64,000 nucleotides of DNA, from assembly GCF_030811555.1 (NCBI RefSeq), contig NZ_JAUSQZ010000001.1, positions 4,957,241 to 5,021,240 on the forward strand, written 5' to 3'. Position numbers and translations under genes: made by a program. Numbering within the stretch: position 1 is the stretch's first letter; every line of letters begins with the position of its first letter. Of the stretch, positions 3,571-26,971 are shown piece after piece. This DNA comes from Kineosporia succinea. Its GTDB lineage: Bacteria; Actinomycetota; Actinomycetes; Actinomycetales; Kineosporiaceae. Below the pieces are notes generated by a model. The model had not been told where the DNA came from. It did not search any database and was given only the letters and a program-made list of their open reading frames with translations.

Positions 3571-3925
3571 GGTCGTGCGGCGCTACCTGAGTGCTCTGAA
3601 CACGGGCACGGTGGACGCGGCGGTCGCCTGTGTGAGCGAGGGTTTCGTCAACGAGCACACGAGCCGGGGAGGGGTGACGCGCCGGGGCCGGGCCGCGTAC
3701 GCGGCGGCGCTGCCGGGTTTCCTGGCCGACTTCGCCGGGCTTCGTTACGAGCCGGAGTGTTTCATCGAAGACGGGGCGAGGGTCGCCGTTCCCTACGTGA
3801 TGACGTTCCGGCCCTCGGCGCGGGTGCGGGGTGTCTTCGTGTTCACCCTGGACCCCGACGGCCTGATCGCCCACCGCGTGGACTACTGGGACTCGGCGGC
3901 CGTCCGGCCCCAGGACAGAGCCTAG
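3554..3925 (+). CDS. NTF2-like / SnoaL-type protein
   Basis: About 123 residues with the cone-shaped NTF2-like pattern: an N-terminal helix 'VVRRYLSALNTGTVDAAVACVSE', a middle strand region, and the C-terminal strands 'FVFTLDPDGLIAHRVDYWDS'. This resembles small nuclear-transport-factor-2/SnoaL proteins, which act as cyclases, isomerases or ligand-binding subunits. The chosen GTG at 3554 overlaps the end of the VOC gene by 17 bases; the frame is open further upstream, but that part is shadow of the VOC gene. The TAG stop is shared on the opposite strand with the dioxygenase stop, because CTAG at 3922-3925 is palindromic. No specific function can be assigned. Confidence 0.7.
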   Translation: MIGLSEVVRRYLSALNTGTVDAAVACVSEGFVNEHTSRGGVTRRGRAAYAAALPGFLADFAGLRYEPECFIEDGARVAVPYVMTFRPSARVRGVFVFTLDPDGLIAHRVDYWDSAAVRPQDRA

Positions 3926-4992
3926 TTCCCCCACGCGAGGTTCGGCAGCACGGCCTCGGCGATGGTGAACCGGCCACCCGGCAGCACCCCACCGGCCGGT
4001 TCGCCCATCGTCACCACGTGCTTGCCGAACTCCGGCACCAGAGGCCGCCCGACGTCCCTCCTCAGCCAGAGCCGCAGCAGATGACGCCGCCGCGAGGGCT
4101 CGGGAAAGTCGGTGTAGGCCGTGCGGGAGTGCAGGGCGGCGTAGTTCAGCAGCCACTGCACGTCGCCGGGCCGGAAGTTCATGTCCAGGGCCAGACCCGG
4201 CTCCTGCGAGATCTCGTCGAACAGGTTCAGCACCTCGACCTGCCCGGGCGTCAGGCGGGGCACCTCGGCGAACCGCTGCGCCGAGAAGACCATCGACATG
4301 CCCGCGTAGACGCTGAAGACCCCGTCGACGTACGAGACGACGGGGGAGGTGTAGGTGTTCGCCGGGGCGTCCGGATCCTGCGCCTTCCAGTCCCAGTGGA
4401 ACGGCTCGAGCAGCAACGGGGCGAGATCCGGGCGCCGGCGCAGCAGTTCGTTGTAGATCGTGGTGCCGCTGACCAGGCTGCTCGCCCCGCCCTCCTTCGA
4501 GCCGCGCAGGCACATCAGCGCGACCACGTCGGAGGAGTCGGAGTGGAACGGCAGACGGTCGCGCACCCGAGAGGGTTTCGCGTCGGCGTCGGCGAGAGTC
4601 TTGTCGGAGGTGGCGATCACGTGGTCGAGCAGGTCGCCCATCTGGTTCTGCCCGATCGGCCGGCCGAGGTGCAGGCCCAGCACGAAGAAGATCGCACCGG
4701 CCAGCACGTCGCCGTAGTCCGGCGTGTCCAGCCCCCGCACCAGCAGGAATCCGCGCCCGGCGTCGAGCTGGCGGGCCGACTCCTGGTTCAGCCGGGTGCA
4801 GGCCGGCAGCGGGTAGTCGGCGGCGGTGACGGTGCGCAGGTCGGGGTCGTCGGCCACGAACCGGCGCCCGGCCGCCTCCAGGTCGGCCCGCTCGGCCGCG
4901 TCGAGCTCGTAGATCCACTCGGTGGAGGCGGCCAGGTCGGACCCCTTCCAGGCGGACGGGCCGGAGATCGCTTCCAGGGCGGTGCTCGTCAT
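3922..4992 (-). CDS. TauD/TfdA-family Fe(II)/2-oxoglutarate-type dioxygenase
   Basis: A 356-residue protein of the TauD/TfdA family. The iron-binding facial triad can be placed at H150, D152 ('PFHSDSSDVVALM') and H288 ('NYAALHSRTAYTD'), with R307 ('RRRHLLRLWL') as the probable 2-oxoglutarate carboxylate ligand. The family hydroxylates or oxidatively cleaves small organic acids, sulfonates, herbicides and amino-acid derivatives. The frame is open far upstream, but the ATG at 4992 gives the normal family length and sits just inside the divergent promoter region shared with the M19 dipeptidase. It ends tail-to-tail with the NTF2-like gene. The upstream region has direct repeats and a motif also found before the peptide-importer operon. 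Substrate is unknown. Confidence 0.85.
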   Translation of the reverse strand: MTSTALEAISGPSAWKGSDLAASTEWIYELDAAERADLEAAGRRFVADDPDLRTVTAADYPLPACTRLNQESARQLDAGRGFLLVRGLDTPDYGDVLAGAIFFVLGLHLGRPIGQNQMGDLLDHVIATSDKTLADADAKPSRVRDRLPFHSDSSDVVALMCLRGSKEGGASSLVSGTTIYNELLRRRPDLAPLLLEPFHWDWKAQDPDAPANTYTSPVVSYVDGVFSVYAGMSMVFSAQRFAEVPRLTPGQVEVLNLFDEISQEPGLALDMNFRPGDVQWLLNYAALHSRTAYTDFPEPSRRRHLLRLWLRRDVGRPLVPEFGKHVVTMGEPAGGVLPGGRFTIAEAVLPNLAWGN

Positions 4993-5020
4993 CGCGCGGG
5001 CTCCCCGGGGTGGAGGTTGG

Positions 5021-5072
5021 CGTCCGGACCAGGCTAGGTATCGCGTCCGGAATGCGTCAATATGCCGTCCGG
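5021..5072. promoter_or_regulatory. Three direct CGTCCGG repeats in the divergent dioxygenase/dipeptidase promoter region
   Basis: Seven-base CGTCCGG repeats start at 5021, 5044 and 5066, in the same orientation and 22-23 bases apart, roughly two helical turns. This is the spacing expected for sites bound cooperatively on one face of DNA. They lie in the 105-base gap between the TauD/TfdA gene (start 4992, minus) and the dipeptidase gene (start 5098, plus). In such GC-rich DNA a seven-base repeat can occur by chance, so the even spacing is the main argument. Confidence 0.4.
5034..5056 (-). promoter_or_regulatory. Candidate operator/promoter element shared with the importer operon
   Basis: On the plus strand this reads CTAGG-T-AT, then CGTCCGGAAT and GCG. 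A very similar block, CTAGG-A-AT, CGT-A-TCCGGAAT and T-GCG, occurs at 18109-18136. Both have the same orientation relative to a downstream minus-strand gene (the dioxygenase here, the binding protein there), 42-64 and 70-97 bases before the start codons. Read on the minus strand, the CCTAG end gives a plausible actinobacterial -10 region (ATACCT). I infer a common promoter or operator; no regulator gene is recognisable nearby. Confidence 0.4.
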
Positions 5073-5097
5073 GAGCAGGATCAGGCATGATCGCGTC

Positions 5098-6198
5098 ATG
5101 GGCGACGTACGTGAGGCACATCCTGAGGTGGACGACGTGGTCGTGGAGGCCCTCGGCCTCTGCGGCGTGATCGACGGGCACAACGACCTGCCCTGGGCGA
5201 GGCGCGAGCGGTTCGGTCACACCACCGACGGGCTCGACGGCGACGTCCCCGGTCTGCACACGGACGCCCCCCGGCTCGCGGCCGGTGGCGTCGGCGGTCA
5301 GTTCTGGTCGGTCTACGTGCCGGTCGATCTCGAGGGCGCCGCCGCGGTCCAGGCGACGCTGGAGCAGATCGACTTCGTGCACCGCCTCACCGACGACCAC
5401 CCCGGGCACTTCGTGTTCGCCCGTACCGCGGCCGATGTCGTGAGGGCCCGCGCCGAGGGCCGGGTCGCCTCGCTGATCGGGGCCGAGGGCGCCCACTCGA
5501 TCAACGATTCCCCGGCCGTGCTGCGGATGTTCGCGCGTCTCGGCGTGCGCTACCTGACCCTGACCCACGTCACCGGCACCAGCTGGGCCGACTCGGCCAC
5601 CGACACCCCCGTGCACGGCGGTCTGAGCGCCCGGGGTGCCGACTACGTCCGGGAGATGAACCGGCTCGGCCTGCTTCTCGACCTCTCGCACGTGTCGCCC
5701 GATACGATGCGGCAGGCTCTCGACCTCACCACCGCACCCGTGATCTTCTCCCACTCCTCGTGCGCGGCGCTCTCCTCGCACCCGCGCAACGTGCCCGACG
5801 ACGTGATCGCCCGGCTGCCCGGGAACGGTGGCGTGCAGATGGTCTCGTTCGTGGCCGGGTTCGTGTCGCAGGAGGTCGCGGACTGGTGGGGCACCTCGGC
5901 CACGATGCCCGAGGGCCCGGGGCCCGTCGCGACGCTCGAGCAGGCGGCCGACCACGTCGAGCACGTCCGCTCGGTCGCGGGGCTCGCCCACGTCGGTCTC
6001 GGTGGCGACTACGACGGCGCGCCCTCGTTCCCGACCGGCCTGGAAGACGTCTCGACCTATCCGCGGCTGCTCGGTGAGCTCGCGCGGCGGGGCTGGACGG
6101 CGCCGGAACTGGCCGATCTGGCCGGCCGCAACGTGTTGCGGGTGCTGGAGGCCACCGACGAGGCCTTCCTGTCCGCGTCCGGAGGCACCTTCCTCTGA
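5098..6198 (+). CDS. membrane-dipeptidase-type peptidase (family M19)
   Basis: A 366-residue zinc dipeptidase of the renal-dipeptidase family. The metal ligands are visible: H28 and D30 ('VIDGHNDLPW'), bridging E130 ('GAEGAHSIND'), H198 ('LDLSHVSPDTM') and H219 ('FSHSSCAAL'). The 'GLGGDYDG' and 'NVLRVLEA' motifs near the end are also typical. Bacterial M19 enzymes hydrolyse small L,L or L,D dipeptides and sometimes beta-lactam-like or N-acyl amino acids. The upstream ATG at 5062 is possible, but the ATG at 5098 is preferred because it lies outside the promoter repeats. The gene is divergent from the dioxygenase and convergent with the last gene of the importer/hydrolase operon, so it probably serves the same catabolic purpose. 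Confidence 0.88.
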   Translation: MGDVREAHPEVDDVVVEALGLCGVIDGHNDLPWARRERFGHTTDGLDGDVPGLHTDAPRLAAGGVGGQFWSVYVPVDLEGAAAVQATLEQIDFVHRLTDDHPGHFVFARTAADVVRARAEGRVASLIGAEGAHSINDSPAVLRMFARLGVRYLTLTHVTGTSWADSATDTPVHGGLSARGADYVREMNRLGLLLDLSHVSPDTMRQALDLTTAPVIFSHSSCAALSSHPRNVPDDVIARLPGNGGVQMVSFVAGFVSQEVADWWGTSATMPEGPGPVATLEQAADHVEHVRSVAGLAHVGLGGDYDGAPSFPTGLEDVSTYPRLLGELARRGWTAPELADLAGRNVLRVLEATDEAFLSASGGTFL

Positions 6199-6212
6199 GG
6201 TCGCAGGAGGCC

Positions 6213-7790
6213 TCAGGTGGACGCCGCCCGGGCGTCGACCACCGTCGCCAGCACCCGGGCCTCCCGCAGCGCATCGTCGTCGCAGGTCAGCGGATCCACG
6301 TCGAGTGCCACCAGGTCGGCCGGCCCGCCCGGGAACAGGTGGCCCGCACGGCCGGTGACCTGGGCGGCGCCGGTGGTGAACAGGGCCAGGGCCTCGGCCG
6401 GGGTGATCGCCTGGGCCTCGCCCAGCGGGGTGTCCCGGCCGCGCACCCGGCGGGTGCGGGCCTGCCACATGCCGAACAGCGGCGGCAGCGGCGGCCCGGG
6501 CCCGTCGCTGCCGCCGCCCACGAGCACGCCGGCGTCGAGCCACGCCCGCAGCGGATTCGCCTGCGCGGCCTCGTCCTCGCCGAGCCGGTCGATGAGGGTG
6601 GTGCCGAACGCCCACTGCAGCGCCGGGTGGGCCGACAGCGCCACGCCGAGTCGCGCGGCCCGGGCCATCGCGGCGCGACCGGGTGAGAGGTAGCCGTGGA
6701 TGATGTGGAAACCCGTTCCGCGGTAGGGACGTTCACCGGCCCAGTTGAGCACCTCGAGTACATCCAGCACGGCGTCGACCGCGGCGTCACCCACCGCGTG
6801 CACCCCGACGCCGCGCCCACGCAGCTCCGCCGTGCAGTGCCGGCGCAGGGTCTCGAGCGTGATCGTGCGGTTGCCGTGGTCGTCGGTGCCCGGCCACGGC
6901 ACCGACCGCCAGGCCGTGCCGAGTGAACCTCCGCCGTCGAGAAAGAGTTTCGTCGGGCCGACCCGCAGCTGCCGCGGGTCGACGCCGGTGATCGCATCGA
7001 CGGCGGCGGTGACGTCGAGCGGGTCGACCTCGTCCGAGCCCAGCGGCATGACGACGGCCCGCTGCCGCAGCCAGCCCTCCTGCGCGGCCCGCGTCCAGGC
7101 GGTCAGGTCGTCGAGCGCGACGGCCGGGTCCATCGCCGTGGTGATGCCGTGCTCCAGCAGCTCGGCCTGGCCCAGCCGGATCCAGCGCATCCGGGTCTCC
7201 AGGTCGGGCCGGGGTTTCCGGGCGAGGGCCACGGCCCGCTCGACGAGCACGCCGGTGGGGGAGCCGGTGCGGTCACGCTGGATGCGGCCGCCGGGCGGAT
7301 CGGGCGTGGTGGCGGAGATCCCGGCCCACCGCAGCACGGACGAACTGACGATCGCGTCGTGCCCCTTGCGGTCGAGCACCACGAAGCGGCCCGGGCAGGC
7401 GCGGTCGAGGTCGTAGCGGTTGGGCAGGCGCCGCTCGGCCAGGTCGACGGGCTCGAACGCGGCGTCGGCCTCGATCCAGCCGTCGTGCGTGTCGGCGTAG
7501 TCGCTGAGCCGTTGCTGCAGGGCCTGGAGCGAACGGACGCCGGTCAGGTCGCAGCGGTCGCGTCGCCTCCCGGCCCACATCACGTGGACGTGGCTGTCGG
7601 TGAAGCCGGGCAGGACCGTTCCGGGCAGGTTGATCTCACGCACGCGGGCGCTGAGCTCGGCCCGCACCCAGCCCGGCGTGCCCCACGACACGATCGCCCC
7701 GTCGCGCACCCCGATCGCGCCGACCCGGGCCGGCAGGGCCCGGTCCGGGGAGAGGGTGTGGATGTCGCCGGTGATGAGGACGTCAGGCAT
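6213..7790 (-). CDS. amidohydrolase family protein (YtcJ-like, amidohydro_3)
   Basis: A 525-residue metal-dependent hydrolase. The sequence shows the 'GFTDSHVHV' HxH motif (H67, H69), the later 'GVHAVGDAAVDAVLDVLE' and 'FHIIHGYLSP' histidine motifs, and the 'GGGSDGPGPPLPP' aspartate loop. This is the order of the YtcJ/N-substituted-formamide-deformylase-like amidohydrolase_3 group, which cleaves exocyclic amides or formamides. The chosen ATG at 7790 has GGGAG about seven bases upstream; an upstream in-frame start at 7823 would reach almost to the previous stop. It is the last gene of the twelve-gene minus-strand operon, 42 bases after the gamma-glutamyltransferase-like gene. The true substrate is unknown. 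Confidence 0.85.
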   Translation of the reverse strand: MPDVLITGDIHTLSPDRALPARVGAIGVRDGAIVSWGTPGWVRAELSARVREINLPGTVLPGFTDSHVHVMWAGRRRDRCDLTGVRSLQALQQRLSDYADTHDGWIEADAAFEPVDLAERRLPNRYDLDRACPGRFVVLDRKGHDAIVSSSVLRWAGISATTPDPPGGRIQRDRTGSPTGVLVERAVALARKPRPDLETRMRWIRLGQAELLEHGITTAMDPAVALDDLTAWTRAAQEGWLRQRAVVMPLGSDEVDPLDVTAAVDAITGVDPRQLRVGPTKLFLDGGGSLGTAWRSVPWPGTDDHGNRTITLETLRRHCTAELRGRGVGVHAVGDAAVDAVLDVLEVLNWAGERPYRGTGFHIIHGYLSPGRAAMARAARLGVALSAHPALQWAFGTTLIDRLGEDEAAQANPLRAWLDAGVLVGGGSDGPGPPLPPLFGMWQARTRRVRGRDTPLGEAQAITPAEALALFTTGAAQVTGRAGHLFPGGPADLVALDVDPLTCDDDALREARVLATVVDARAAST

Positions 7791-7832
7791 GCCCGGGCTC
7801 CCGGAACGAGAGGGCGCCCGCATCGATCCCGC

Positions 7833-9320
7833 TCAGGTCAGGACCTCGCCCCGGCCGTCGGCGCGGGGGTCGGCCGCGGCGGACAGGCCCCCGGCGTCCA
7901 GGCGGCTGACCTGCACGTGACCGGCGTCGTCGCGCTTGCTCCCCGACGTGACCACGGTCAGTCCCAGATCGGTGGCCGCCGCCGCCAGGGCCTCGGCACC
8001 GGGCACCGCGGGCTCGAGCAGCAGCGTGGGCGAGGGCATTCCGAGGTCCCGCGAACCGATCACCCAGCGCGGGCGGTCGAGCACCGCCGACAGGTCGGGG
8101 GCCGTGACCACGTCGCGCGCCACCTGCGACAGGATCCACGCCTGGGCGCGGCCTCCCTGGCAGCCGAGGGCCACGACCGTCTCGCCGGAGACCGCGATCG
8201 CCGGGCACAGCGTGTGCGGTGGGCGGGCCCCGGGCTGGATCCGGCCCGGGTGCGCGGGGTCGAGGCTGAAGGCCGAACCCCGGTTGTGGAAGACGATTCC
8301 GGTGGCCGGGTCGAGGAAACCGGAGCCGAAGGTCTGGAACACGCTCTGGATCAGCGTGACCGCGGTGCCGTCGGCGCCGACGGCCGTGACCGCCACCGTG
8401 TCGCCGGCCGGCTTGGGACCGGTGGGCAGGGCGTCGACCGGGACGGACGACTGGCCCAGCAGGGCGGCCACGTCGACCGGACCCCGCGCCGGGTCGCCCA
8501 GCAGCGCGTCGCGGCGCAGTTCGGCGGCCCGGGCGGCGCCGAGCTCCTGGCCCGGGGCGGCGGACAGCACGGCCAGCAGAGCCGCCCCCTGACTGGGCGG
8601 GGGAGCGACCGACCAGACCACGCCGTCGACCGTCGCCGACAGCGGTTCGCCCACCTCGGCCCGGTGCACCGCCAGGTCGGGCTCCCGCAGGGGGCTGCCG
8701 AAAGCCTCCAGCGCGGAGGCGATCCGGGTGGCCAGCGGGCCGGTGTAGAACGATCGCCAGTCGGCGGCGATCTCGGTCAGGGTGTCCGCGAGAGCCGGCT
8801 GCACCAGAGGTGAGCCGACCGCCCGGGGCGCCGACGCGTCGTCCAGCAGGAGAGCCGACAACCCCGGATCGGAACGGACGACCGCGAGCCGGTCGAGCGT
8901 GCCCCGGGCCAGCCCGGGGCTCACGGCCACCCCCTCGCGGGCGAGCCCGATCGCGGGCGCCAGCAGGTCGGCGAGCGGCAACCGGGCACCCAGCCCGGCG
9001 AGCCGCGCCCAGCCCGCCACCACACCCGGGACCGTGACCGACAGCGGGCCGCCCGGGGGCATCCGGTCGAGCCCGGCCACCGCGGACACGTCGAGACCCT
9101 GGGCCGCGGCCCCGGCCGAGACCACGGCCCGTACCTCGCCCGAGGGCAGGCGGACCAGCGCGATCAGGTCACCGCCGACCGAGCACTGGTGCGGGTAGGC
9201 GACGGTGAGGGCGGCAGCGGCGGCGACCGCGGCGTCCACCGCCCCGCCACCGGCCTCGACCACCGCGCGGGCGGCCGACACCGCGTCGGGATGGGGAGCC
9301 GCGATCGCTACTGCTGCCAT
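7833..9320 (-). CDS. gamma-glutamyltransferase-like Ntn hydrolase
   Basis: About 495 residues resembling the gamma-glutamyltranspeptidase family, which self-cleaves before a Thr that then acts as the N-terminal nucleophile. The N-terminal part 'VVEAGGGAVDAAVAAAAALTVAYPHQCSVGGD' matches the large subunit. T308 in 'GDTVAVTAVGADGTAV' aligns with the catalytic Thr of the family pattern 'TTHxSVVDxDGNA'. The usual second Thr and His of that pattern are missing, so this is a divergent member closer to cephalosporin-acylase/YwrD-like proteins. No signal peptide is visible, which suggests cytoplasmic action. It starts seven bases after the cyclase-like gene in the operon. It may cleave a gamma-glutamyl or other acyl-amide bond of the imported compound; that is inference. 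Confidence 0.8.
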   Translation of the reverse strand: MAAVAIAAPHPDAVSAARAVVEAGGGAVDAAVAAAAALTVAYPHQCSVGGDLIALVRLPSGEVRAVVSAGAAAQGLDVSAVAGLDRMPPGGPLSVTVPGVVAGWARLAGLGARLPLADLLAPAIGLAREGVAVSPGLARGTLDRLAVVRSDPGLSALLLDDASAPRAVGSPLVQPALADTLTEIAADWRSFYTGPLATRIASALEAFGSPLREPDLAVHRAEVGEPLSATVDGVVWSVAPPPSQGAALLAVLSAAPGQELGAARAAELRRDALLGDPARGPVDVAALLGQSSVPVDALPTGPKPAGDTVAVTAVGADGTAVTLIQSVFQTFGSGFLDPATGIVFHNRGSAFSLDPAHPGRIQPGARPPHTLCPAIAVSGETVVALGCQGGRAQAWILSQVARDVVTAPDLSAVLDRPRWVIGSRDLGMPSPTLLLEPAVPGAEALAAAATDLGLTVVTSGSKRDDAGHVQVSRLDAGGLSAAADPRADGRGEVLT

Positions 9321-9327
9321 CGGTGTC

Positions 9328-9960
9328 TCAGTCCCTCGTGATCAGGACGGCCCGGGTGAAGGCGCCGTCGGCATCGACCAGTTTGGCCGGAAGACACACT
9401 AATTCGTACTCGCCCGGCGGCACCTCGTCCAGGTCCGCGTTCTCCAGGATCAGCACCCCGGCGTTCAGGAGGACGTGGTGGGAGTCCCAGGTGTCCGTGC
9501 GGGTGTGGTGCTCGAGGGTCATGTAGTCGGTGCCGATCAGCTCGACGCCGTGATCGACCAGCCACTGCGAGGCGGCCGGCCCGACACCCACCCAGGTCTG
9601 CGCCCGTTCGGGTTCCTTGAGCGGACCGGCCGAGTTCGTGGTCTTCAGCAGGACCCGCCGGTGCCCGGCGACGCCTGCCGCCTCCAGGTGCTCGGGGAGC
9701 ACCTCGCCCTCGACCCCGGTGCAGTCCGCGACGATGGCCGGGCCGATCATCGAGTACAGCGACACCTGGTCGATCGGCGTCGCGCCGTCGACGAAGTGGG
9801 CCGGGGCGTCGACGTGGGTGCCGGTGTGCGCGCCCAGGCGCCAGCGGGTCACGTTGGACGCGTCGCCGTTGGCCAGCGACTCGACCACCTCGACCTCGGG
9901 TTTGCGGCCCCAGTGCAGCATCTTCGGGTGGATGGGGAGGGTGATGTCGTAGATCTTCAT
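9328..9960 (-). CDS. cyclase family protein (KynB/isatin-hydrolase-like)
   Basis: A 210-residue member of the metal-dependent cyclase family (PF04199) that includes bacterial kynurenine formamidase and isatin hydrolase. The family motif HxGTHxDxPxH is complete: H45, H49, D51 and H55 in 'GAHTGTHVDAPAHF'. The enzymes use Zn or Mn to hydrolyse amide bonds in or next to aromatic rings. The ATG at 9960 has GGAAAGG six bases upstream; a GTG two codons earlier overlaps the creatininase stop. It belongs to the minus-strand operon. No tryptophan-catabolism genes are nearby, so a kynurenine role is unlikely and hydrolysis of a cyclic or aryl amide is more plausible. Confidence 0.85.
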   Translation of the reverse strand: MKIYDITLPIHPKMLHWGRKPEVEVVESLANGDASNVTRWRLGAHTGTHVDAPAHFVDGATPIDQVSLYSMIGPAIVADCTGVEGEVLPEHLEAAGVAGHRRVLLKTTNSAGPLKEPERAQTWVGVGPAASQWLVDHGVELIGTDYMTLEHHTRTDTWDSHHVLLNAGVLILENADLDEVPPGEYELVCLPAKLVDADGAFTRAVLITRD

Positions 9961-9962
9961 CG

Positions 9963-10724
9963 TCACGCCTTTCCGGGGCGATGGGTCGGGTCCGGCCAGG
10001 GCTCGGCGACGGCTCCGGCCACCGCCTCGGCGGTGGTCCTCACGCAGCGCTCGAACTCGGCCTTGCCGTGGTCGGCATTGGCCTCGTGCACGTCGCGGCC
10101 CCAGACCCCGGTGTCGCTGACCTGGTCCATGCGGTAGTCCCAGAACGAGTCCACGTCCACGTGCGAGGTGGCGCGGTCCATGTGCACGAGCTCGGGGTGC
10201 AGGTGCAGCATCACCGAGGTCTCGAAGAAGTTGGCGTGCATCAGGCCTCGCCCGTACTGCACCCGGCCGTTGACCTCCGGGCCCGGGTACATGGTGACGT
10301 AGCCCAGCGCCCGCACCCGCGAGTCCGGGTGCCGCACCCGGAGTTTCTCGGCCGTGACGTCGAGCGCGCCGTTGTTCCAGATGTGCCCGTTCAGCAGCAC
10401 GAACTGCCGCACCCCGCTGGCGTGCAGCGAGTCGATCAGATCCTCCATCACCGCGATCAGTGTCTCGGGGCGCAGCGCGACGGTTCCCGGGAAGTCGCCG
10501 TGCGACCCGGACACCCCGTAGGTGACCGGCGGCAGCACCGGCACCCCGGTGCGCGCCGAGACCTGCTCGGCGACCGCCGTGCCGATCAGCGTGTCCACGG
10601 CCAGCGGCAGGTGCGGGCCGTGCTGTTCCACCGCGCCGACCGGAATGATCACCGCGTCGGTGCGTTTCACCGTCTCGCCGGCCTCGGGCCAGGTCTGACG
10701 TTCCCAGTACAGGGGCTTGCTCAC
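9963..10724 (-). CDS. creatininase family protein
   Basis: About 253 residues of the creatininase/creatinine-amidohydrolase fold. The metal-binding signature 'GAVEQHGPHLPLAVDT' gives E33, H35 and D44, and 'YGVSGSHGDFPGTVALRPET' is also characteristic. The family includes creatininase, the deformylase ArfB and the mycofactocin peptidase MftE; all hydrolyse cyclic or small amides. I chose the GTG at 10724 because a strong GGAGG lies five bases upstream; that GGAGG is inside the alternative longer reading that begins at the ATG 10736. It follows the deaminase-like gene by 16 bases in the operon. No creatinase, sarcosine oxidase or mycofactocin genes are present, so the substrate is open. Confidence 0.85.
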   Translation of the reverse strand: MSKPLYWERQTWPEAGETVKRTDAVIIPVGAVEQHGPHLPLAVDTLIGTAVAEQVSARTGVPVLPPVTYGVSGSHGDFPGTVALRPETLIAVMEDLIDSLHASGVRQFVLLNGHIWNNGALDVTAEKLRVRHPDSRVRALGYVTMYPGPEVNGRVQYGRGLMHANFFETSVMLHLHPELVHMDRATSHVDVDSFWDYRMDQVSDTGVWGRDVHEANADHGKAEFERCVRTTAEAVAGAVAEPWPDPTHRPGKA

Positions 10725-10740
10725 ATCGTCCTCCATCGTA

Positions 10741-11157
10741 TTACCAGACCCGGCGCGACTTCTCGGGCAGCAGGTCGAGGGCCTCGTACTCCACGATGTC
10801 CTCGGAGGCTGTCACCCACACCCGGGCGTCCGGGCTGTAGTCGCTGATCAGTTCCCGGCACACCCCGCAGGGGGCGATCACCCGGAACCGGTCGGCCGGC
10901 TTGATCTGCACCGAGACCACGGCCTCGATGTCCAGCACGCCGCCCGCGGCCAGAACCGCACCCATGGCCACCCCCTCGGCGCAGATCGAGCTACGCCGGC
11001 AGGAACCCTCGACATGGACGCCGGTGTGCACCGATCCGTCCCGGGTGCGCAGAGCGGTCGCCACCTCGTGACGGCCCTGTACGTAGACCTTCTCGAGGAG
11101 GTCCTGGGCTCGCTCGAAGAGCTCAGGATCACCGGGGGCCTGCAGACGCAGGATCAC
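10741..11157 (-). CDS. cytidine-deaminase-fold protein, blasticidin-S-deaminase-like
   Basis: A 138-residue zinc deaminase of the tetrameric cytidine deaminase type. The zinc and catalytic residues are C59 and E61 ('SICAEGVAMG') and C97/C100 ('APCGVCREL'). Its small size, the C-A-E motif and the C-terminal 'ALDLLPEKSRRVW' resemble blasticidin-S deaminase more than housekeeping Cdd. The start is the GTG at 11157, overlapping the previous stop in a GTGA junction; the longer open frame upstream is shadow. It lies inside a peptide-importer/hydrolase operon, which fits catabolism of a nucleoside-like or amidine-bearing compound rather than simple pyrimidine salvage. Which substrate is deaminated is unknown. 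Confidence 0.82.
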   Translation of the reverse strand: MILRLQAPGDPELFERAQDLLEKVYVQGRHEVATALRTRDGSVHTGVHVEGSCRRSSICAEGVAMGAVLAAGGVLDIEAVVSVQIKPADRFRVIAPCGVCRELISDYSPDARVWVTASEDIVEYEALDLLPEKSRRVW

Positions 11158-11912
11158 AGGCCCAGGATCTTCGCGAAGTTGCCGCCCTCGACCAGCGCCC
11201 GGTCGGTCTCGTCGGGAATGGCCTTGGCGATCTTGAAGCGCTCGAGATCGAAGTCGGAGCCGGGCCATTCGCTGCCCAGCAGGATCTTCGAGGCGCCCAG
11301 CCGTGCGTAGGCCCGCTTCACGTCGCTCATCAGGGTGGCCGAGGTCTCCAGGAACACGTGCGGCTGGCGCTCGGCCACGATGATCGCCTCGGGCACGTTC
11401 CAGACGGCACCCATGTGCGCGATGATCGTCGGCACTCCCGGGTGGTCCTTGGCGATCTCCTCGATGGCCAGCGGGGCGCAGAACGAGTCGTCGAGGGCGT
11501 TGATCAGCACGGGAAGTCCCAGCGAGGCGCACTTCTCGAAGACCGGGTCGAGCAGCCCGTGATCGGCCACGTGGTAACCGTGCAGGCTCGGGTGCAGCTT
11601 CAGGCCCTTCAGCCCGGCCGCCGCGAACCGCTCGATCTCGTCGAGGGCGTCGTCGGCCTGGGGCATGACCTGGCCGAAACCGATGAACCGGTCGGGGTGC
11701 TTCGACACCATGTCGATGAGGAAGTCGTTCTCGATGCGCTGGGCCAGGGAGCACACCATGGCCATGTCCACGCCGGCCGCGTCCATCCGGGTCAGGATGC
11801 GCTGCGGGTCGAACGGTGTGTGGGGCGGCGGCTTCTCGCCCGGCTTCGCGCCGGTGAGGTAGTCGGAGCGGCCGCGCACGTCCTGGGTGGTGTTGTAGGC
11901 GTCGATGATCAC
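11154..11912 (-). CDS. amidohydrolase-2-like TIM-barrel protein, lacking the N-terminal HxH
   Basis: A 252-residue TIM barrel of the amidohydrolase_2 (ACMSD/dihydroxybenzoate-decarboxylase-like) type. Later motifs are recognisable: '[15 protein letters not shown]', '[13 protein letters not shown]' and '[16 protein letters not shown]', followed by the 'NFAKILGL' end seen in this family. The N terminus reads '[11 protein letters not shown]', where most members have a D-x-H-x-H metal motif, so at least one metal ligand pair is missing. It may be a decarboxylase- or hydrolase-like enzyme with altered metal use, or an inactive member. The GTG start at 11912 overlaps the ATPase stop by four bases, so expression is coupled to the importer. 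Confidence 0.78.
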
Positions 11913-12876
11913 GCGTGCTCCAGAGGTTCGAGAGGGAAATGACAGCGGACGTCGTGGCCGGGCCCGAGTTCCCGGAGCACCGGTTGCTCGGTACGGCAGA
12001 GCTCGGTGGCCGCGGGGCAGCGGGTGGAGAAGAGGCAGCCGGCCGGGGGATCGGCCGGGTCGGGGGGATCGCCCTGGAGCTGAGCAGCTTTCGGCTCAGC
12101 CACCGCCGTGACCCGGGGCACCGAGGCCAGCAGGGCACTGCTGTACGGGTGGGCCGGGCCCGCGAAGAACCGGTCGCGCTCGGCGATCTCGATGATCTGG
12201 CCCAGGTACATCACCGCGACCCGGTCGGCCAGCTGCCGCACCACGCCCAGGTCGTGCGATATGAACAGGCAGGTCAGGTTGCTCGTCTCGGTCAGGTCGG
12301 CGAGCAGGTTCACCACCTGGGCCTGGATCGACACGTCGAGCGCGGAGACCGGCTCGTCGGCCACCACGAACCTCGGCGACGGGGCCAGGGCCCGGGCGAT
12401 CGCGATGCGCTGACGCTGGCCGCCGGAGAACTCCCGGGGCCGGCGCTGCCCGGCGTCGCGGCCGAGGCCGACCTTCTCGAGCAGCTCGCCGGCCCGCTCC
12501 TCGGCCTCCTGGCGCGTCGCGCCCCGGGCCCGCACGACCGGCTCGGCGATGATGTCGACCACCTTGCGGCGCGGGTTCAGCGAGCCGAACGGGTCCTGGA
12601 AGATCATCTGCAGGTCGGCCCAGACCCGGCGCAGGGGCGCACCCTTGAGGTGGGTGATGTCGAGGCCGAGGAAGTCGATGCGCCCGGCCTGTGGCTCGAT
12701 CGCCCGCAGCACGGCCCGGCCGAGACTGGACTTGCCACACCCGGACTCGCCGACCAGGCCCAGCGTCTCACCCTCGGCGATGACCAGGTCGACGTCCCGC
12801 ACGGCCCGGACCTTCTGACCGCCGGGCCGGGAGTACTCGACGCGGAGCCCGGTGAGCTGGAGCAGGGGAACGGGTT

Positions 12877-12880
<4 letters not shown>
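11909..12880 (-). CDS. dppF: dipeptide/oligopeptide ABC transporter ATP-binding protein (DppF/OppF-like)
   Basis: A 323-residue ATPase. Walker A is '[12 protein letters not shown]' (residues 42-52), the signature is '[16 protein letters not shown]' and Walker B is '[13 protein letters not shown]'. The C-terminal oligopeptide-transporter extension '[14 protein letters not shown]' has the cysteine pattern that binds a 4Fe-4S cluster in some Dpp systems. The frame is open upstream to 12979, but the ATG at 12880 overlaps the preceding ATPase stop in an ATGA junction and gives the family length. It forms the ATPase heterodimer with the product of the next upstream gene and powers the importer in the cytoplasm. 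Confidence 0.92.
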
Positions 12881-13829
<949 letters not shown>

Positions 13830-13833
<4 letters not shown>

Positions 13834-14504
13834 GACAGGGCTTCCTCGATCAGGTCGGCCACCCGGCCGGGACTGACCTGGGGCACGAAGTGGCTGCCGT
13901 CGACCTCGGAGGTGACGGCCCGCATCCGGGCGGCCATGTCGCGCTGGGTGTCCACCCGCAGCGTCTTGTCCTGAGCGGCCACGAGATACCAGCTGGGCCG
14001 GGTCTTCCAGGCCGGGACGCCGGACTTCTGCGCGAAGATCTCGTTCGAGCTGGGCCGTCCCTCGGCGGACCACACCTCACGGCGCTCCGGCGGCAGGTCC
14101 CAGGCGATCTCCGCGTAGTACTCGGGCGAGCGCGACGACTGCCACGAACCGTCCGCTCCCCGCACCATGTGCTTGTTCACCGGCGCGACGTCGTACCGGG
14201 CCAGGATGTCCTGGATCGACTCGTCCTGGTCCGGCGCCCACGCCGCCACGTAGACCAGGCCCTTGACCCGCGGATGGTGCCCGGCGCCGGTGATCACTGC
14301 GCCGCCGTACGAGTGCCCGACGAGAAGCACGTCCCCGTCGGTGTTCTCGTCGATCCACGCGGTGGTCGTCGCGATGTCGTCCTCGAGGGAGGTCATCGGA
14401 TTGGTGACCGCCGAGACCACGTGCCCCCGCGCGTGGACCATCGGCAGCACGAACGACCACGTGGTGGGCGTGCCACCGGCGCCGTGCACGAGAACGATGT
14501 TCAT
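13830..14504 (-). CDS. alpha/beta-fold hydrolase embedded in the importer operon
   Basis: A 224-residue small alpha/beta hydrolase. The N-terminal oxyanion segment 'VLVHGAGGTPTTW' and the nucleophile elbow 'VGHSYGGAV' (S65) are clear, and 'DGSHFVPQVSPGRVADLI' near residue 207 supplies the catalytic His in the usual place. The closest general type is the esterase/EstC-like group in which a His-Phe-x-Pro motif ends the protein. No signal peptide is visible, so it acts in the cytoplasm. It is one base from the permease gene on one side and overlaps dppD on the other. That position suggests it works on the compound just after import, perhaps as an esterase or amidase. Confidence 0.87.
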
Positions 14505-14505
14505 C

Positions 14506-15546
14506 TCAACTCTTTCCCAGCCGCGGGTCCAGCACCAGGTACAGGACGTCGACGGCCGCGTTGACCAGTACGAACAGCAGGGCGATCGCCAGCGCGGCGC
14601 CCTGCACCACCGGGTAGTCGCGCTGCAGCACCGCGTCGACGAGCAGCACCCCCACCCCGGGGTAGGAGAAGACGGTCTCGGTGACGGTGGAACCGCCCAG
14701 CAGCGTGCCGAACTGGAGCCCGAGCACGGTGATGATGGGCAGGGACGCGTTGCGCAGCACGTGTTTGCGCACCACCTGCCCCTCGCCGAGGCCCTTCATC
14801 TGGGCGGTGCGCACGAAGTCGTCACCCAGTACCTCCAGCACGGAGGCACGCACGATCCGGGTGATGAAACCGGCCGTGGACAGGGCCAGCGTGGCGGCGG
14901 GCAGGATCAGGTGCTGGATCCAGGGCCAGATCAGCTCGGGCCGGTCCTGCAGGACCGCGTCCAGCAGCACGAAGTTCGTGAGCGGTTCGTACTCCAGCCG
15001 GTTGGGCAGCCGGCCCAGCACGGGCAGCCAGCCCAGCCAGACGCCGAACACCACGATGCCCAGCACACCGAGCGCGAACCAGGGGAGGCTGAACGTGACC
15101 GTGGCGGCCGCCCGGATGCCGGTGTCGACCGGGGTGTCCTTGCGCAGCGCCGCGACCAGGCCGGAGACGCCGCCGATGACGACGGCGGCGAGCATGGCCG
15201 CGACGGTGAGCTCGATGGTGGCGGGCAGGGCGCTCCTCAGCAGCGACAGGACGTCGTTGCCACCGAAGTACGAGGAGCCGAAATCTCCACGGATCAGGTC
15301 ACCGAGGTAGGTCAGGTACTGCACCGGCAAGGGCTGGGACAGACCCAGGCTCTCGCTGATCTGGTCGGCGTTGGCGGTGATCTGCTCGGCCGACTGGTCA
15401 CTCGCGCCGCCCGCCGCCAGAGAGGTGGCGGGGGAGCCGGGCAGGAAGCGCAGGGCCACGAAGACCAGGGTGGCCAGGGCCCACAGCACCAGGGGAACGG
15501 TGAGGAGTCTCAGCGCGATGGTTCGGGTCGCCGGATTGCGGGTCAC
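14506..15546 (-). CDS. dppB: dipeptide-type ABC transporter permease (DppB-like)
   Basis: A 346-residue inner-membrane permease of the BPD_transp_1 class. It starts with a long N-terminal transmembrane helix ('LLTVPLVLWALATLVFVALRF' region), then a periplasm-facing loop and five more helices. The EAA-type coupling loop lies near 'FVRTAQMKGLGEGQVVRKHVLRNASLP'. The sequence 'DFGSSYF' after the first loop is also typical of DppB/GsiC. The GTG at 15546 overlaps the stop of the other permease gene in a GTGA junction. It forms the channel together with DppC. Confidence 0.92.
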   Translation of the reverse strand: MTRNPATRTIALRLLTVPLVLWALATLVFVALRFLPGSPATSLAAGGASDQSAEQITANADQISESLGLSQPLPVQYLTYLGDLIRGDFGSSYFGGNDVLSLLRSALPATIELTVAAMLAAVVIGGVSGLVAALRKDTPVDTGIRAAATVTFSLPWFALGVLGIVVFGVWLGWLPVLGRLPNRLEYEPLTNFVLLDAVLQDRPELIWPWIQHLILPAATLALSTAGFITRIVRASVLEVLGDDFVRTAQMKGLGEGQVVRKHVLRNASLPIITVLGLQFGTLLGGSTVTETVFSYPGVGVLLVDAVLQRDYPVVQGAALAIALLFVLVNAAVDVLYLVLDPRLGKS

Positions 15547-16379
15547 GCGAGTCCCTTCGGGTCGAGCGCGTCCCGCAGGTCGTCACCCGCGAAGTTGCAC
15601 GCCACCACGAAGACCAGCGTGGCCGCCGCGGGCAGCACGGTCAGGGCCGGCGTGGTGAGCACGAACTCCTGCCCGGCCTGCACCATGTTTCCCCAGTCCG
15701 GGGTCGAGGCCGGGATGCCCAGGCCGAGGTACGAGAGCCCGGCCGCGAAACCCGCGGCGACGGAGAGCGTCATGATCACCTGGGCCAGCATCGGCCCGGC
15801 GATGTTCGGCAGGATCTCCCGCAGCATGATCCGCCCGCCCTGGCTGCCACCGAGTTTCGAGGCCAGCACGTAGTCCCGCGCCGCCTCCCGGGCACTGAGG
15901 GCCCGGGCCAGCCGGGCCAGGCCGGGAGCCAGCGAGATGCCGATCCCGATCACCAGGGTGGCCGGTCCGGCGCCGGCCCCGGCGACCAGCAGGATGATGA
16001 GCAGGATCGAGGGGAACGCCAGGGCCAGGTCGACCAGCCGCATCACGACCTGGTCGACCACCCCGCCGAAATACCCGGCGAACAGGCCGATCAGGGTGCC
16101 GATCGTGGTCGCCAGGGTGGTCGCCAGCACGGCCACGAGCAGCAGGGGCCGGGAACCGTGCACCAGCCGGGCCAGTTCGTCGCGGCCGAGGTCGTCGGTG
16201 CCGAGCGGGTGCCCGCCGCTGCCGAGGGGCAGCAGCGGGCTGTTGCTCTGACGCATCGGATCGGCGCTCACCAGGAACGGCCCGACCAGGGCGACCAGCA
16301 CGAAGAACACCAGCACCAGCCAGGACGCGGCCGAGAGCCAGTTGGTGCCGATGCGCCGGTGGCGGAGAAGCTCAGACAC
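15543..16379 (-). CDS. dppC: dipeptide-type ABC transporter permease (DppC-like)
   Basis: A 278-residue permease with the DppC layout: an N-terminal helix, the segment 'HPLGTDDLGRDELARLVHGSR' that precedes the permease core in nearly all DppC/OppC proteins, and five further helices. The coupling loop lies around 'AARDYVLASKLGGSQGGRIMLREILPNIAGP'. The GTG at 16379 lies eight bases inside the end of the binding-protein gene, so translation is coupled. The order binding protein, DppC, DppB is reversed from the usual A-B-C order. Confidence 0.92.
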   Translation of the reverse strand: MSELLRHRRIGTNWLSAASWLVLVFFVLVALVGPFLVSADPMRQSNSPLLPLGSGGHPLGTDDLGRDELARLVHGSRPLLLVAVLATTLATTIGTLIGLFAGYFGGVVDQVVMRLVDLALAFPSILLIILLVAGAGAGPATLVIGIGISLAPGLARLARALSAREAARDYVLASKLGGSQGGRIMLREILPNIAGPMLAQVIMTLSVAAGFAAGLSYLGLGIPASTPDWGNMVQAGQEFVLTTPALTVLPAAATLVFVVACNFAGDDLRDALDPKGLA

Positions 16380-18039
16380 TCGCCTTCTCCAGGAAACAGC
16401 GGTGGTTGCCGAGGGCGTTCGGGTTCAGGCCCTGCACGCTCGCGCCGCTCACCACCGGGTTGGTCGAGTAGGCGAGCATCGACAGCACCATGTACTCCTC
16501 GGCCCAGCGCCGCTGGATCTCGGTGTAGGCCGCGGTGCGCTCGTCGCCGTCGGGCAGGTTCTTGGCCGTGTAGAGGTCGTCCGCGAACCGCTCGGACCCC
16601 TTCAAGGACGCGAACCCGGTGGCGAAGTCGCCGTAGACACCCGAGGGCAGGGCCATCGAGCCGACCATGTTGTCCGGGTCGGGCACGTACGAGTTGCGCT
16701 CCCAGATCATCAGGTCGTGGTATTCGTCGGTCGTGTCGTAGATCCGGTTGAAATACGCTGCCGGGTCCACGGAATCGACCTTCACGGTGAGCCCGAGGTC
16801 GGTCAGGTTCTGCTCCACGATCTGCGCGGCCTTGGGGTGCCAGCTGTCGCTGGCGGCCATCAGGTGCACGGTGCGTCCCTCGGCCCCGGCCTGCTTCAGC
16901 AGTTCCCTGGCCTTCGTGAGGTCCTGCGTGCTGAGGTCTTTCAGGCTCGCGTCGTAGCCGTTCTGCGACGGCGGGATGGCGTAACCGTCGGGTGTCTGCC
17001 CCTTGCCGAAGAAGGCCTGCGAGACGATGGCGTTGCGGTCGATGGCCAGGTTGATGGCCTGCCGCACCTCGAGTTCGGGGATGCGCCGCGCGTCGATCAT
17101 CAGGATCGCGTCGAAGCCGAGCGTGGTGTCGTGCACCGTCACCGCGTCGTTCTTGGCCAGCGAGGCCAGGCTCGAGTACGGCGTGAACTGCGTGGCCGAG
17201 ATGTCGCCCGAGATCAGGGAGTTCACGATGGTGGACGGGTCGGTCACCTGCTGCAGCACGAGGCGGTCGATCGGGGGGCGCCCGAGTCGGAAGTCCTCGA
17301 ACGCCTCCAGCACCACGGACTGGCCGGCCGTGGCCGAGACGAACTTGAACGGGCCGGTGCCGACGAGCGCCTTGCCGATGCCGGAACCCTCCTTCTCCAG
17401 CGCGGCGCTGGAGATGATGCGCCCGCCGATGTCCGACAGGCGTGAGAGCACCATCCGGTCGGGCTTGTTCAGCTTCAGCTCGACGGTGTTGTCGTCGACC
17501 GCCTTCAGCGACTTCACGTTGTCGGCCAGGTTCTTCAGAGGCCGCGACGCGCCCTCGGGCAGGGTCTTGTCCTTGTCGTTCCACTGCCGGTTCAGGCTGG
17601 CCAGCACGTCGGCCGAGGTGAACGTGGTGCCGTCGTGGAAGGTCACACCGGTGCGCAGACGGAAGGTGTAGGTCAGCTGGTCGTCCGAGATCTCCCAGGA
17701 CTCGGCCAGATCCGGCTGCGGCTCGTTGCTCTCGAACGAGATGAAGGTCAGGCCGCGGCAGACGCAGTCGACGGCCATCCAGTCGCCGAGGGTGGTGTAG
17801 AAGGCCGGGTCGTTCACGGCGCTGGTGCCGTCGATGGCCAGGGTGAGCGTGCCGCCGGTGCTCGCGGCGCCGTCGGTGTCGTCGTCGGCGGCCACCCCGC
17901 AGGCCGAGAGCAGGCCACTGAGGCCGAAGGTCATGCCCATGCCGAGCAGTCCGGCGCCGCGCAGCATCGTGCGGCGGGAGACGTCGTTCGTGGGGACGGC
18001 ACTGGTGTCGATGCTGGGGTCGATCGGGGGACGCGGCAT
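16372..18039 (-). CDS. ABC transporter substrate-binding lipoprotein, family 5 (dipeptide/oligopeptide type)
   Basis: A 555-residue family-5 (SBP_bac_5) extracellular binding protein. The N terminus carries a twin-arginine motif (R22-R23 in 'SRRTMLRGAG') and a lipobox 'LLSAC' with lipidated C47, so it is probably exported by Tat and anchored outside the membrane. The mature part has the family pattern 'LAESWEISDDQLTYTFRLRTGVTFHDGTTFTSADV'. The ATG at 18039 has GGAG six bases upstream. It is the first gene of the twelve-gene operon. Family members bind peptides, but also nickel chelates, opines and plant compounds, so the ligand cannot be named. Confidence 0.92.
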   Translation of the reverse strand: MPRPPIDPSIDTSAVPTNDVSRRTMLRGAGLLGMGMTFGLSGLLSACGVAADDDTDGAASTGGTLTLAIDGTSAVNDPAFYTTLGDWMAVDCVCRGLTFISFESNEPQPDLAESWEISDDQLTYTFRLRTGVTFHDGTTFTSADVLASLNRQWNDKDKTLPEGASRPLKNLADNVKSLKAVDDNTVELKLNKPDRMVLSRLSDIGGRIISSAALEKEGSGIGKALVGTGPFKFVSATAGQSVVLEAFEDFRLGRPPIDRLVLQQVTDPSTIVNSLISGDISATQFTPYSSLASLAKNDAVTVHDTTLGFDAILMIDARRIPELEVRQAINLAIDRNAIVSQAFFGKGQTPDGYAIPPSQNGYDASLKDLSTQDLTKARELLKQAGAEGRTVHLMAASDSWHPKAAQIVEQNLTDLGLTVKVDSVDPAAYFNRIYDTTDEYHDLMIWERNSYVPDPDNMVGSMALPSGVYGDFATGFASLKGSERFADDLYTAKNLPDGDERTAAYTEIQRRWAEEYMVLSMLAYSTNPVVSGASVQGLNPNALGNHRCFLEKASV

Positions 18040-21063: not shown

Positions 21064-21888
21064 GTGGAAATGACCGAGACCGACTCCGAAGCCGGTCGCA
21101 TGGAGGATCGGGGCACCCGTGACCGGGTGTCGCGCGAGATCCTGCATCACGGTCCGATCACCGCGAGTGACCTGGCGGCCACGCTCGGGCTGACGCCCGC
21201 GGCGGTGCGCCGGCACCTGGACACCCTGACAGACCAGGGTCTCGTCTGCACGTGGGACCCTCCCGAGGGCACCCCCCGGCGGCGGGGCCGTCCGGCCCGG
21301 CTCTTCGTGCTGACCGACGCGGGTCACTCCGTGATGTCGACCGCGTACGACGACCTGGCCGTGCAGCTGCTCGAGTTCCTGGCCGAGACGGCCGGGCCCG
21401 ACGCCGTGCGCGAGTTCGCCGTGGTGCGGGCCGAACGGCTCGCCCAGCGCTACCGTCCCGCCGTCGATGCGGCCGGGGGAGACCCCCACCGCCGGGCCGG
21501 AGCTCTGGCCCAGGCCCTCAGCACGGATGGATACGCGGCCAGCGTGCGTTCACTCGAGGAGCGGGGCCGCGCGCACGAGGAGCAGACCACCCGGCAGACG
21601 GGTAAGCAGCTGTGCCAGGGGCACTGCCCGGTCCAGCAGGTCGCCGCCCAGTTCCCGCAGCTGTGCGAGGCCGAGACGCACGCGTTCTCCAACCTTCTCG
21701 GGGTCCACGTGCAGCGGCTCGCCACGCTCGCCCACGGGGAGCACGTCTGCACCACCCACATTCCCCTGAGCGCGGTCTCGGCCACGCTCGACACACGTAA
21801 CCCGACCGGCCGGCCCGAGTCAGCACCCGGGCCGGATGTCACGTCACAAGAGGAGAAAGCAGCCGATGAGCACCGTGTCGCATCCTGA
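21061..21888 (+). CDS. sufR: SufR-family transcriptional regulator of Fe-S assembly
   Basis: A 275-residue regulator. Residues 20-85 form a winged helix ('[28 protein letters not shown]'), followed by a wing rich in Pro and Arg. The C-terminal half holds cysteines that can ligate an Fe-S cluster: C185 and C189 ('CQGHCPV'), C202 ('QLCEAE') and C230 ('HVCTTH'). SufR proteins sense cluster status and repress suf. The GTG at 21061 is used here, but GTG 21064 or ATG 21070 are possible. The 3' end overlaps sufB by 23 bases. A palindrome lies on its start site. Confidence 0.9.
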
Positions 21889-23278: not shown

Positions 23279-23324
23279 TCCGCCCACCCGTCCCCGTCAC
23301 CCCAGAATCCGAGAACAGAGAGCC

Positions 23325-24817: not shown

Positions 24818-24849
24818 ATCCCCAGACCTTCTAGGAGAACTGAACCACC

Positions 24850-25608: not shown

Positions 25609-25616
25609 TCAACCCG

Positions 25617-25659
25617 ATGGTGGACGTCCGTACGCGACTCGCGTACGGACGTCCACCAT
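25617..25659 (+). terminator. Perfect 20-bp hairpin between sufC and sufS (terminator/attenuator candidate)
   Basis: The arms 25617-25636 and 25640-25659 are exact reverse complements, with a three-base ACT loop. Only a short TT(T) run follows, so full termination is uncertain. It lies within a same-strand operon, so it may act as a partial terminator, processing site or stabiliser that sets sufRBDC above sufSUT expression. Confidence 0.65.
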
Positions 25660-26969: not shown

Positions 26970-26971
26970 CC

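Follow-up and report, generated by a model that had tools for sequence, protein, structure and literature searches.

The described systems closest to the locus examined here are Dpp/Opp importers (AgaA, DppA, and GsiB), creatininases (1q3k, 1j2t), the arylformamidase KynB (TIGR03035; 4cog) together with isatin hydrolase, the γ-glutamyltranspeptidase (GGT)-related proteins 2i3o and 2nlz, and the guanidine carboxylase/UAAP1/2/allophanate hydrolase pathway. The locus is a 12-gene operon of Kineosporia succinea, located on the minus strand at positions 6213 to 18039 of a 64,000-nucleotide stretch (contig NZ_JAUSQZ010000001.1, positions 4,957,241 to 5,021,240; hereafter, the window) of a genome assembled as a single contig of 8.07 Mb. 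With the importers it shares a full set of a solute-binding protein (SBP) and DppBCDF, but its SBP falls under every equivalog cut-off. Its creatininase-like protein belongs to the same Pfam family as creatininase and retains the E-x-H...D and NGH motifs and the later His, whereas two Trp residues and one Glu, which we take to be substrate-stacking residues and a metal ligand, are replaced. The KynB-like protein has a PF04199 domain and the HTGTHVD motif, presumably a mark of the KynB/isatin-hydrolase family, but scores below the KynB cut-off. The GGT-like protein agrees with 2i3o and 2nlz at the NRG...F and HT positions and in the Thr region; none of the three shares what we take to be the γ-glutamyl-binding positions of classical GGT. 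Whole or partial copies of the guanidine carboxylase pathway are linked to some homologous loci; the pathway would, however, be a final module rather than part of the operon, and no copy was detected in K. succinea itself (thresholds below).

Aniline- or putrescine-type γ-glutamylation modules combine a glutamine-synthetase-like (GS-like) protein with a Rieske or FAD oxidase. K. succinea likewise pairs a GS-family protein with a Rieske oxygenase in an oxidative cluster, but this cluster is unlinked to the window, and the GS-like protein has a relative that scores 248.7 of 650 bits against γ-glutamylputrescine synthetase. An archaeal nitrifier metagenome-assembled genome also places a creatininase-like gene beside a ureide hydrolase, the biuret hydrolase (PMC12625717); that locus is archaeal, however, and the available part of the source mentions with it no importer and neither of two further operon proteins, the cytidine-deaminase-like protein (CDA) and the Amidohydro_2 protein (AH2). 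The gene set as a whole is not described among the literature matches listed, in a search covering few subscription journals, or in the available parts of PMC4433059, PMC12186494, PMC4617892, and PMC12625717; the main text of PMC4433059 (on RidA), as far as available, has no word beginning with creatinin, glutamyltrans, amidohydrolase, or dipeptide.

The operon is apparently an importer-hydrolase catabolic system that assembles known families into an undescribed pathway. Our proposal, held tentatively and at a little short of even confidence, is that actinobacteria break down a probably cyclic guanidino or ureido compound that bears an amine through a modular pathway, in which the operon would be module A (uptake and hydrolysis), the oxidative cluster module B, and urea/guanidine genes module C.

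Conservation and genomic linkage of the operon

The same 12 genes occur in identical order in four of the five other Kineosporia genomes, including those of Kineosporia mesophila and K. rhizophila, and the arrangement is therefore not due to chance. An orthologue of the creatininase-like protein (89 to 91%) was found in the same proportion of congeneric genomes (4/5) and in none of seven other genomes of the family (E 1e-30). Because a creatininase-like protein is present in just 3 of 396 genomes of a phylum sample, our own genome counted (E 1e-40), the system is rare.

Homologous loci were collected by a scan of a genome collection for AH2 that was limited by its D-A-Y-N pattern; from 215 relatives the best 80 loci were kept, a set biased to D-A-Y-N. 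Within about 10 kb around AH2, or less where the contig ends, CDA was encoded in 76 loci, an alpha/beta hydrolase (ABH) and a GntR regulator in 47 each, and KynB-like, GGT-like, creatininase-like, and YtcJ-like proteins in 45, 44, 43, and 36, respectively; a copper amine oxidase occurred in 39 and an FAD oxidase in 36. AH2 and CDA are thus a near-constant core of these loci (L095 ends 154 bases past AH2, so that a missing CDA is uninformative there). Proteins were grouped by single linkage at 38% identity, under which DppD, DppF, and other ABC ATPases merge, and DppD and DppF were excluded as evidence; tblastn was used for L015, L087, L089, and L091, on which gene calling is poor. CDA, the creatininase-like, KynB-like, and GGT-like proteins, and the SBP all lie near AH2 in 31 of the 80 loci, from 11 genera, and the combination of creatininase, PF04199 protein, CDA, and YtcJ recurs in 10. 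The homologues thus do co-localize, the opposite of which would have refuted the earlier note, and its idea of a joint system for one nitrogen-rich compound is supported to the extent that the run behaves as a single conserved unit with a most probably catabolic role.

Importer and ring-opening genes vary among the relatives. Other loci with AH2 and CDA carry a second Dpp-like importer or a Pot-like one, where “Pot-type” is a reading of gene content and the corresponding SBP matched no NCBIfam model. The neighbors of AH2 in L015 (genome G053) include a TRZ/ATZ-type amidohydrolase and an SsuA-family-like SBP (46.6 of 163.5 bits). L097 likewise encodes a TRZ/ATZ-type amidohydrolase, and no CDA match was found in L015 or L097; the NitT-like label of L096 and L097 rests on resemblance to L015. 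Pairs of genes were compared in the 68 full-length loci, after exclusion of 12 of the 80 that are shorter than 20 kb. Here the creatininase-like gene and an amidase gene (closest to the models PRK07486 and AtzE, whose cut-offs it misses) never occur together: 36 loci have the former alone, 24 the latter alone, and 8 neither. This suggests that the two do the same job, and their mutual exclusion may reflect phylogeny as much as function. On plasmids, no copy of AH2 was found at E 1e-30, and one creatininase-like copy was found, at 33.6% identity. M24-family proteins resembling ectoine hydrolases and peptidases, far under the named cut-offs, were seen near AH2 in L138 (3306 to 4487) and L095 (6497 to 7678).

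The earlier note had treated the 12 genes as the whole set; an unlinked cluster, module B, proves to be inherited together with them. Located at C1:4117650-4127145, 0.84 Mb from the operon, it encodes an aldehyde dehydrogenase, a class-V aminotransferase, an FAD oxidase, a copper amine oxidase, a GntR regulator, a Rieske oxygenase, and a GS-like protein. None of these genes lies in the window; their counterparts in Streptomyces, Actinoplanes, Curtobacterium, and Nocardioides are flanking neighbors of the operon. A copper amine oxidase orthologue (at least 88%) is present in all five operon-bearing Kineosporia genomes; the operon-less sixth has a 41% paralogue only. Among 394 genomes sampled from the class, five had AH2 (E 1e-60) and four had the oxidase (E 1e-170), these four all belonging to the five. 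Without our own genome, 3/3 oxidase genomes carry AH2 against a background of 4/393, for which a hand calculation gives a P value of ~4e-7, with two of the three genomes belonging to one genus and the top candidates per genome alone being scored. The Rieske and GS-like genes adjoin the oxidase in 10 of 13 fetched oxidase regions, the exceptions being L146, L148, and L150. In L070 (13612 to 16083) and other Streptomyces loci, a fusion of class-V aminotransferase and FAD oxidase of about 820 residues was observed (cluster c27, 14 members; both domains were demonstrated in L070).

AH2 is linked to module C in some lineages. In all four Demequina loci, a urea carboxylase gene stands upstream of AH2, with 12 to 25 bases between the end of its tblastn match and the start of AH2, and on the opposite strand, about 3.5 kb past AH2, lies an allophanate hydrolase gene; in L034, the carboxylase scores 1523 of 1304 bits with TIGR02712 and the hydrolase scores 592 bits against a cut-off of 511, both over threshold. 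None of the four loci yielded a UAAP gene. Allophanate hydrolase (AtzF) was further searched for in 24 genomes, including 18 outside Kineosporia, 4 of which had been picked after a hint of module C at the locus edge (L043, L053, L049, and L065). In 12 of these 18, AtzF is encoded 9 to 21 kb from AH2, contigs being matched by their length, and is accompanied by a carboxylase in 9 of the 12 and by UAAP homologues in 11. Two of the five operon-bearing Kineosporia genomes have AtzF as well, at a distance of about 11 kb from their copper amine oxidase gene. Models were tested in two relatives' loci, where scores exceed the cut-offs (in L176, 1735 bits for the carboxylase, 275 for UAAP1, and 318 for UAAP2; in L186, 659 bits for allophanate hydrolase); the other loci are named by similarity only. 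In L016, reached through a 42% relative of the creatininase-like protein, the gene for that relative stands beside homologues of UAAP1/2, the carboxylase, and allophanate hydrolase. Internal in-frame TGA codons were seen in the AtzF matches of three of the 24 genomes (L172, L174, and L171; Rathayibacter twice, Promicromonospora once), and in L184 the gene caller splits AtzF into two pieces.

The carboxylase alignment contains one column fully split between Asn and Asp, which holds Asn in 4/4 Demequina sequences and Asp in 10/10 others (nine linked plus L016). We infer that this is the active-site position that, according to the available part of a review (PMC12186494), is Asp in guanidine carboxylases but Asn in the urea enzymes. 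Both Demequina genomes searched contain the carboxylase, with no urease found; urease is present in all six Kineosporia genomes and in a Cellulosimicrobium genome (L082) in which no carboxylase was found. Two Jiangella genomes (L178 and L188) have UAAP homologues and allophanate hydrolase with no carboxylase at E 1e-200, candidates being partly scored, and a carboxylase-free origin of carboxyguanidine, from the pathway itself, is one possibility for them.

Gene layout and enzyme families

The coordinates, Pfam assignments, and stop-free translations agree with the 12-gene minus-strand run, holding a full importer and seven enzymes, that the earlier note had read from the DNA. From position 18039 downward, the order is SBP, DppC, DppB, ABH, DppD, DppF, AH2, CDA, creatininase-like, KynB-like, GGT-like, and YtcJ-like. 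Most of the 11 junctions (6/11) are indeed 4-base overlaps, as that note had stated; one is an 8-base overlap, and the remaining four leave 1, 4, 7, and 9 bases between genes. As for signals that might split the run, no sigma-70-like promoter was found between 5000 and 19500 by a type of scan that misses some actinobacterial promoters, and the four terminator-like sites of this interval are at chance level (2.1 in shuffles; standard deviation, 1.7).

The importer set is a complete Dpp/Opp ABC type by Pfam, with an extracellular family 5 SBP (16372 to 18039; PF00496 [SBP_bac_5], 266.6 bits), two permeases with PF00528 (BPD_transp_1), DppC-like (15543 to 16379; 94.7 bits) and DppB-like (14506 to 15546; 147.4 bits), and two ATPases with PF00005 and PF08352 (ABC_tran and oligo_HPY), DppD-like (12877 to 13833) and DppF-like (11909 to 12880). 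The SBP best matches 6hlx (AgaA; E 1.7e-44) among PDB sequences, and because it meets no equivalog cut-off its ligand is not predicted. No NCBIfam cut-off was reached by AH2, ABH (13830 to 14504; PF12697 [Abhydrolase_6], 75.9 bits), or the YtcJ-like Amidohydro_3 protein (6213 to 7823; PF07969, 230.2 bits) either.

Family membership of the enzymes, as proposed earlier, is confirmed by Pfam, but the activities their names imply are not: CDA and the creatininase-like, KynB-like, and GGT-like proteins all fall under NCBIfam equivalog cut-offs, so that the family names overstate their known activities. The creatininase-family hydrolase (9963 to 10736; PF02633, 233.4 bits) scores 148.6 of 235 bits with TIGR04448 (creatinine amidohydrolase). 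Aligned to 1q3k, it retains metal ligands as E37, H39, D48, and H118 together with the later His; the ligands of creatininase we take to be E34, H36, D45, H120, and E122. The columns of Trp154 and Trp174, presumably stacking on the substrate, and of Glu122 hold Val147, Arg163, and Trp120, which are at least 97% conserved in 42 sequences. The enzyme is thus probably not creatinine amidohydrolase itself.

CDA (10741 to 11157; PF00383 [dCMP_cyt_deam_1], 30.2 bits; cut-off, 25) scores 113.5 of 131 bits with NF005314 and 60.4 of 113.65 with TIGR01354. Its catalytic C-x-E and P-C-x-x-C motifs are kept (C59, E61, P96, C97, and C100, at least 97% in 77 sequences). Of two columns that we assume to contact ribose in cytidine deaminase, that of Asn holds a conserved H48 and that of Glu holds E50 in the window protein, which is less than 97% conserved in the family. 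These columns appear to weaken the case for a nucleoside or blasticidin substrate, and with it the peptidyl nucleoside that the earlier note had considered.

The KynB-like cyclase-family protein (9328 to 9966; PF04199 [Cyclase], 84.7 bits) reaches 137.9 of 223.05 bits with TIGR03035, and the GGT-like hydrolase (7833 to 9320; PF01019 [G_glu_transpept], 283.4 bits) reaches 188.4 of 357.85 with TIGR00066. The nearest solved sequences of the latter are 2i3o and 2nlz, with which the Thr of its GDT motif, the catalytic small-subunit Thr, aligns; against 2e0w it is one column off in a local alignment. HNRGSAF and HT replace NNQMDDF and SS, placing R, A, H, and T at the positions of the Gln/Asp and Ser-Ser that presumably bind the γ-glutamyl group in classical GGT, and classical γ-glutamyl chemistry was accordingly disfavored for this protein. 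AH2 (11154 to 11912; PF04909, 112.6 bits) has D-A-Y-N-T in place of the D-x-H-x-H of strand 1, which we take to be the metal motif of amidohydrolases. D4, A5, Y6, and N7 are invariant in 26/26 aligned sequences (the AH2 of L087, outside this alignment, has D-S-Y-N), and the closest solved sequences include decarboxylases.

Two neighbors are of uncertain membership. An M19 membrane dipeptidase (5128 to 6198, plus strand; PF01244, 354.1 bits on the open reading frame [ORF] 5062 to 6198) adjoins the operon, as it does in L010/L019 (K. rhizophila), and in the window it sits between YtcJ and a TauD-family 2-oxoglutarate dioxygenase (3922 to 4992, minus strand; PF02668, 96.9 bits on ORF 3922 to 6615). 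In L011 and L012, the gene after YtcJ, in the same orientation, encodes this dioxygenase, which was not seen in L009 or L010 and may be part of the pathway. Farther left, a second importer of the BMP/nucleoside type was noted (window 106 to 2027, plus strand; L105, 15806 to 19850). Pfam identifies its PnrA-like SBP and its pair of PF02653 permeases, an ATPase was recognized by eye, and an Amidohydro_1 protein accompanies the set. To the right, 21866 to 27798 is an apparently ordinary SUF iron-sulfur operon, of which a SufB-domain protein was the sole member tested.

Candidate pathway and competing explanations

A guanidino or ureido compound is favored as the substrate because urea/guanidine genes are linked to the relatives; we infer the substrate class, the step order, and the AH2 reaction from such gene associations, and the order given here is a guess. 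The SBP/DppBCDF importer would take the compound in, and ABH and the GGT-like, KynB-like, and YtcJ-like hydrolases would free it of acyl, formyl, or amide substituents. An exocyclic amidine nitrogen may then be removed by CDA, a cyclic amide opened by the creatininase-like metalloenzyme (the amidase in other lineages), and the ureido/guanidino acid split or rearranged by AH2. The carbon part with its amine would fall to the module B enzymes, and the nitrogen core could be released as urea, handled by urease in Kineosporia and by urea carboxylase and allophanate hydrolase in Demequina, or elsewhere as guanidine or carboxyguanidine via guanidine carboxylase, CgdAB, and AtzF.

Several observations weigh against this pathway. 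The K. succinea genome has no allophanate hydrolase at E up to 1e-80 and no urea carboxylase at E up to 1e-200, and genome G005, in which the operon is missing, has both. Linkage to module C was found in 0/5 creatininase-bearing genomes outside Kineosporia (L020, L027, L031, L079, and L092); it occurs mostly in lineages without the creatininase-like gene, mostly amidase-bearing ones, with Demequina and L016 as exceptions. Two of the 12 linked AtzF genes (G410 and G777) contain an internal TGA. Since module C of L181 contains a permease of the urea-carboxylase type, the module could be an independent neighbor. Guanidine riboswitches are common, though not universal, upstream of guanidine carboxylase pathway genes; none was found at the Rfam gathering score in the 18 sources scanned (out of 201 loci plus the window). 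Genome G053 has neither carboxylase nor urease, and the L094 genome has no carboxylase and a sub-cut-off urease match. The canonical metal motif is missing from AH2, and five genomes, G053 and those that contain L034, L066, L082, and L094, lack the copper amine oxidase at E 1e-50; as these five possess the core, the core pathway could run without the oxidase.

The operon might instead serve generic scavenging of odd peptides, γ-glutamyl amides, or opine-like amino-acid conjugates, combining an importer with mixed amidohydrolases, the M19 dipeptidase, and the GGT-like protein. An SBP of the peptide/opine class with AgaA as best solved sequence match, the adjoining dipeptidase, the breadth of the GGT-like and YtcJ-like families, and a recurring cluster (c22) nearest, below cut-off, to a Xaa-Pro-dipeptidase-type amidohydrolase all point this way. 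We nevertheless regard it as unlikely: the near-constant core of AH2 and CDA is not made of peptidase families, the importer type differs among loci, the GGT-like protein keeps the catalytic Thr but not the γ-glutamyl-recognition positions, and urea/guanidine genes recur near the relatives. Decidedly less probable is catabolism of an aminopyrimidine, for example, formylaminopyrimidine from thiamin breakdown, in which deformylation by the KynB-like protein, deamination by CDA, amine oxidase action on the aminomethyl group, decarboxylation by AH2, and ring opening by the creatininase-like protein would follow a chemistry that, as we understand it, the gene set fits. The decarboxylases among the closest AH2 structures, the SsuA-family-like SBP and TRZ/ATZ-type amidohydrolase of L015, and the TRZ/ATZ-type protein of L097 agree with it; however, no thiamin genes appear among the annotated clusters (no search was aimed at them), no TPP or other riboswitch reached the gathering score in the 18 sources, where a tRNA was the sole match, and such catabolism would not on its own account for guanidine carboxylase with UAAP1/2.

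Degradation of creatinine or N-methylhydantoin, with CDA as creatinine deaminase, ring opening by the creatininase-like protein, the sarcosine-oxidase-like FAD enzyme, and urea as the product, would suit the creatininase family, that oxidase (N-methyltryptophan/sarcosine-oxidase-like, 237.7 of 257 bits), the urea genes, and a biuret-hydrolase-like isochorismatase in some loci. The replaced Trp154, Trp174, and Glu122 columns and the missed TIGR04448 cut-off make it very improbable, it leaves no task for the GS-like, Rieske, and copper amine oxidase genes, and it was rejected as the leading explanation on account of the differing active-site columns. A role in antibiotic detoxification, for example, of a peptidyl nucleoside resembling blasticidin, is equally doubtful: CDA does match blasticidin-S deaminase structures, at scores like those of cytidine deaminases, but the importer, the long gene set, and the link to nitrogen-releasing genes fit nutrition better, and the Asn ribose contact is His in the CDA family. 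For a hydroimidazolone, a Maillard product, no literature match contained both terms, and the idea is kept as a thought only.

Possible implications for nitrogen salvage in actinobacteria

In its broadest form, the modular catabolic pathway proposed here would comprise about 20 genes and let many soil- and plant-associated actinobacteria feed on cyclic guanidino compounds of a single amine-bearing class; we hold this possibility at clearly less than even confidence. A CDA-family deaminase, a creatininase-family enzyme of new specificity, and an amidohydrolase lacking the metal motif would free urea or guanidine, with lineages substituting one importer for another and using either a creatininase-like enzyme or an amidase for ring opening. 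The Demequina version is directly testable, because its minimal set (importer, AH2, CDA, creatininase-like protein, urea carboxylase, and allophanate hydrolase) leaves three reactions to assign, with the likely end product given. If true, this would be an unrecognized nitrogen-salvage route in actinobacteria and would supply new substrates for several easily misnamed enzyme families, and free guanidine in bacteria may have one of its natural origins in this pathway.

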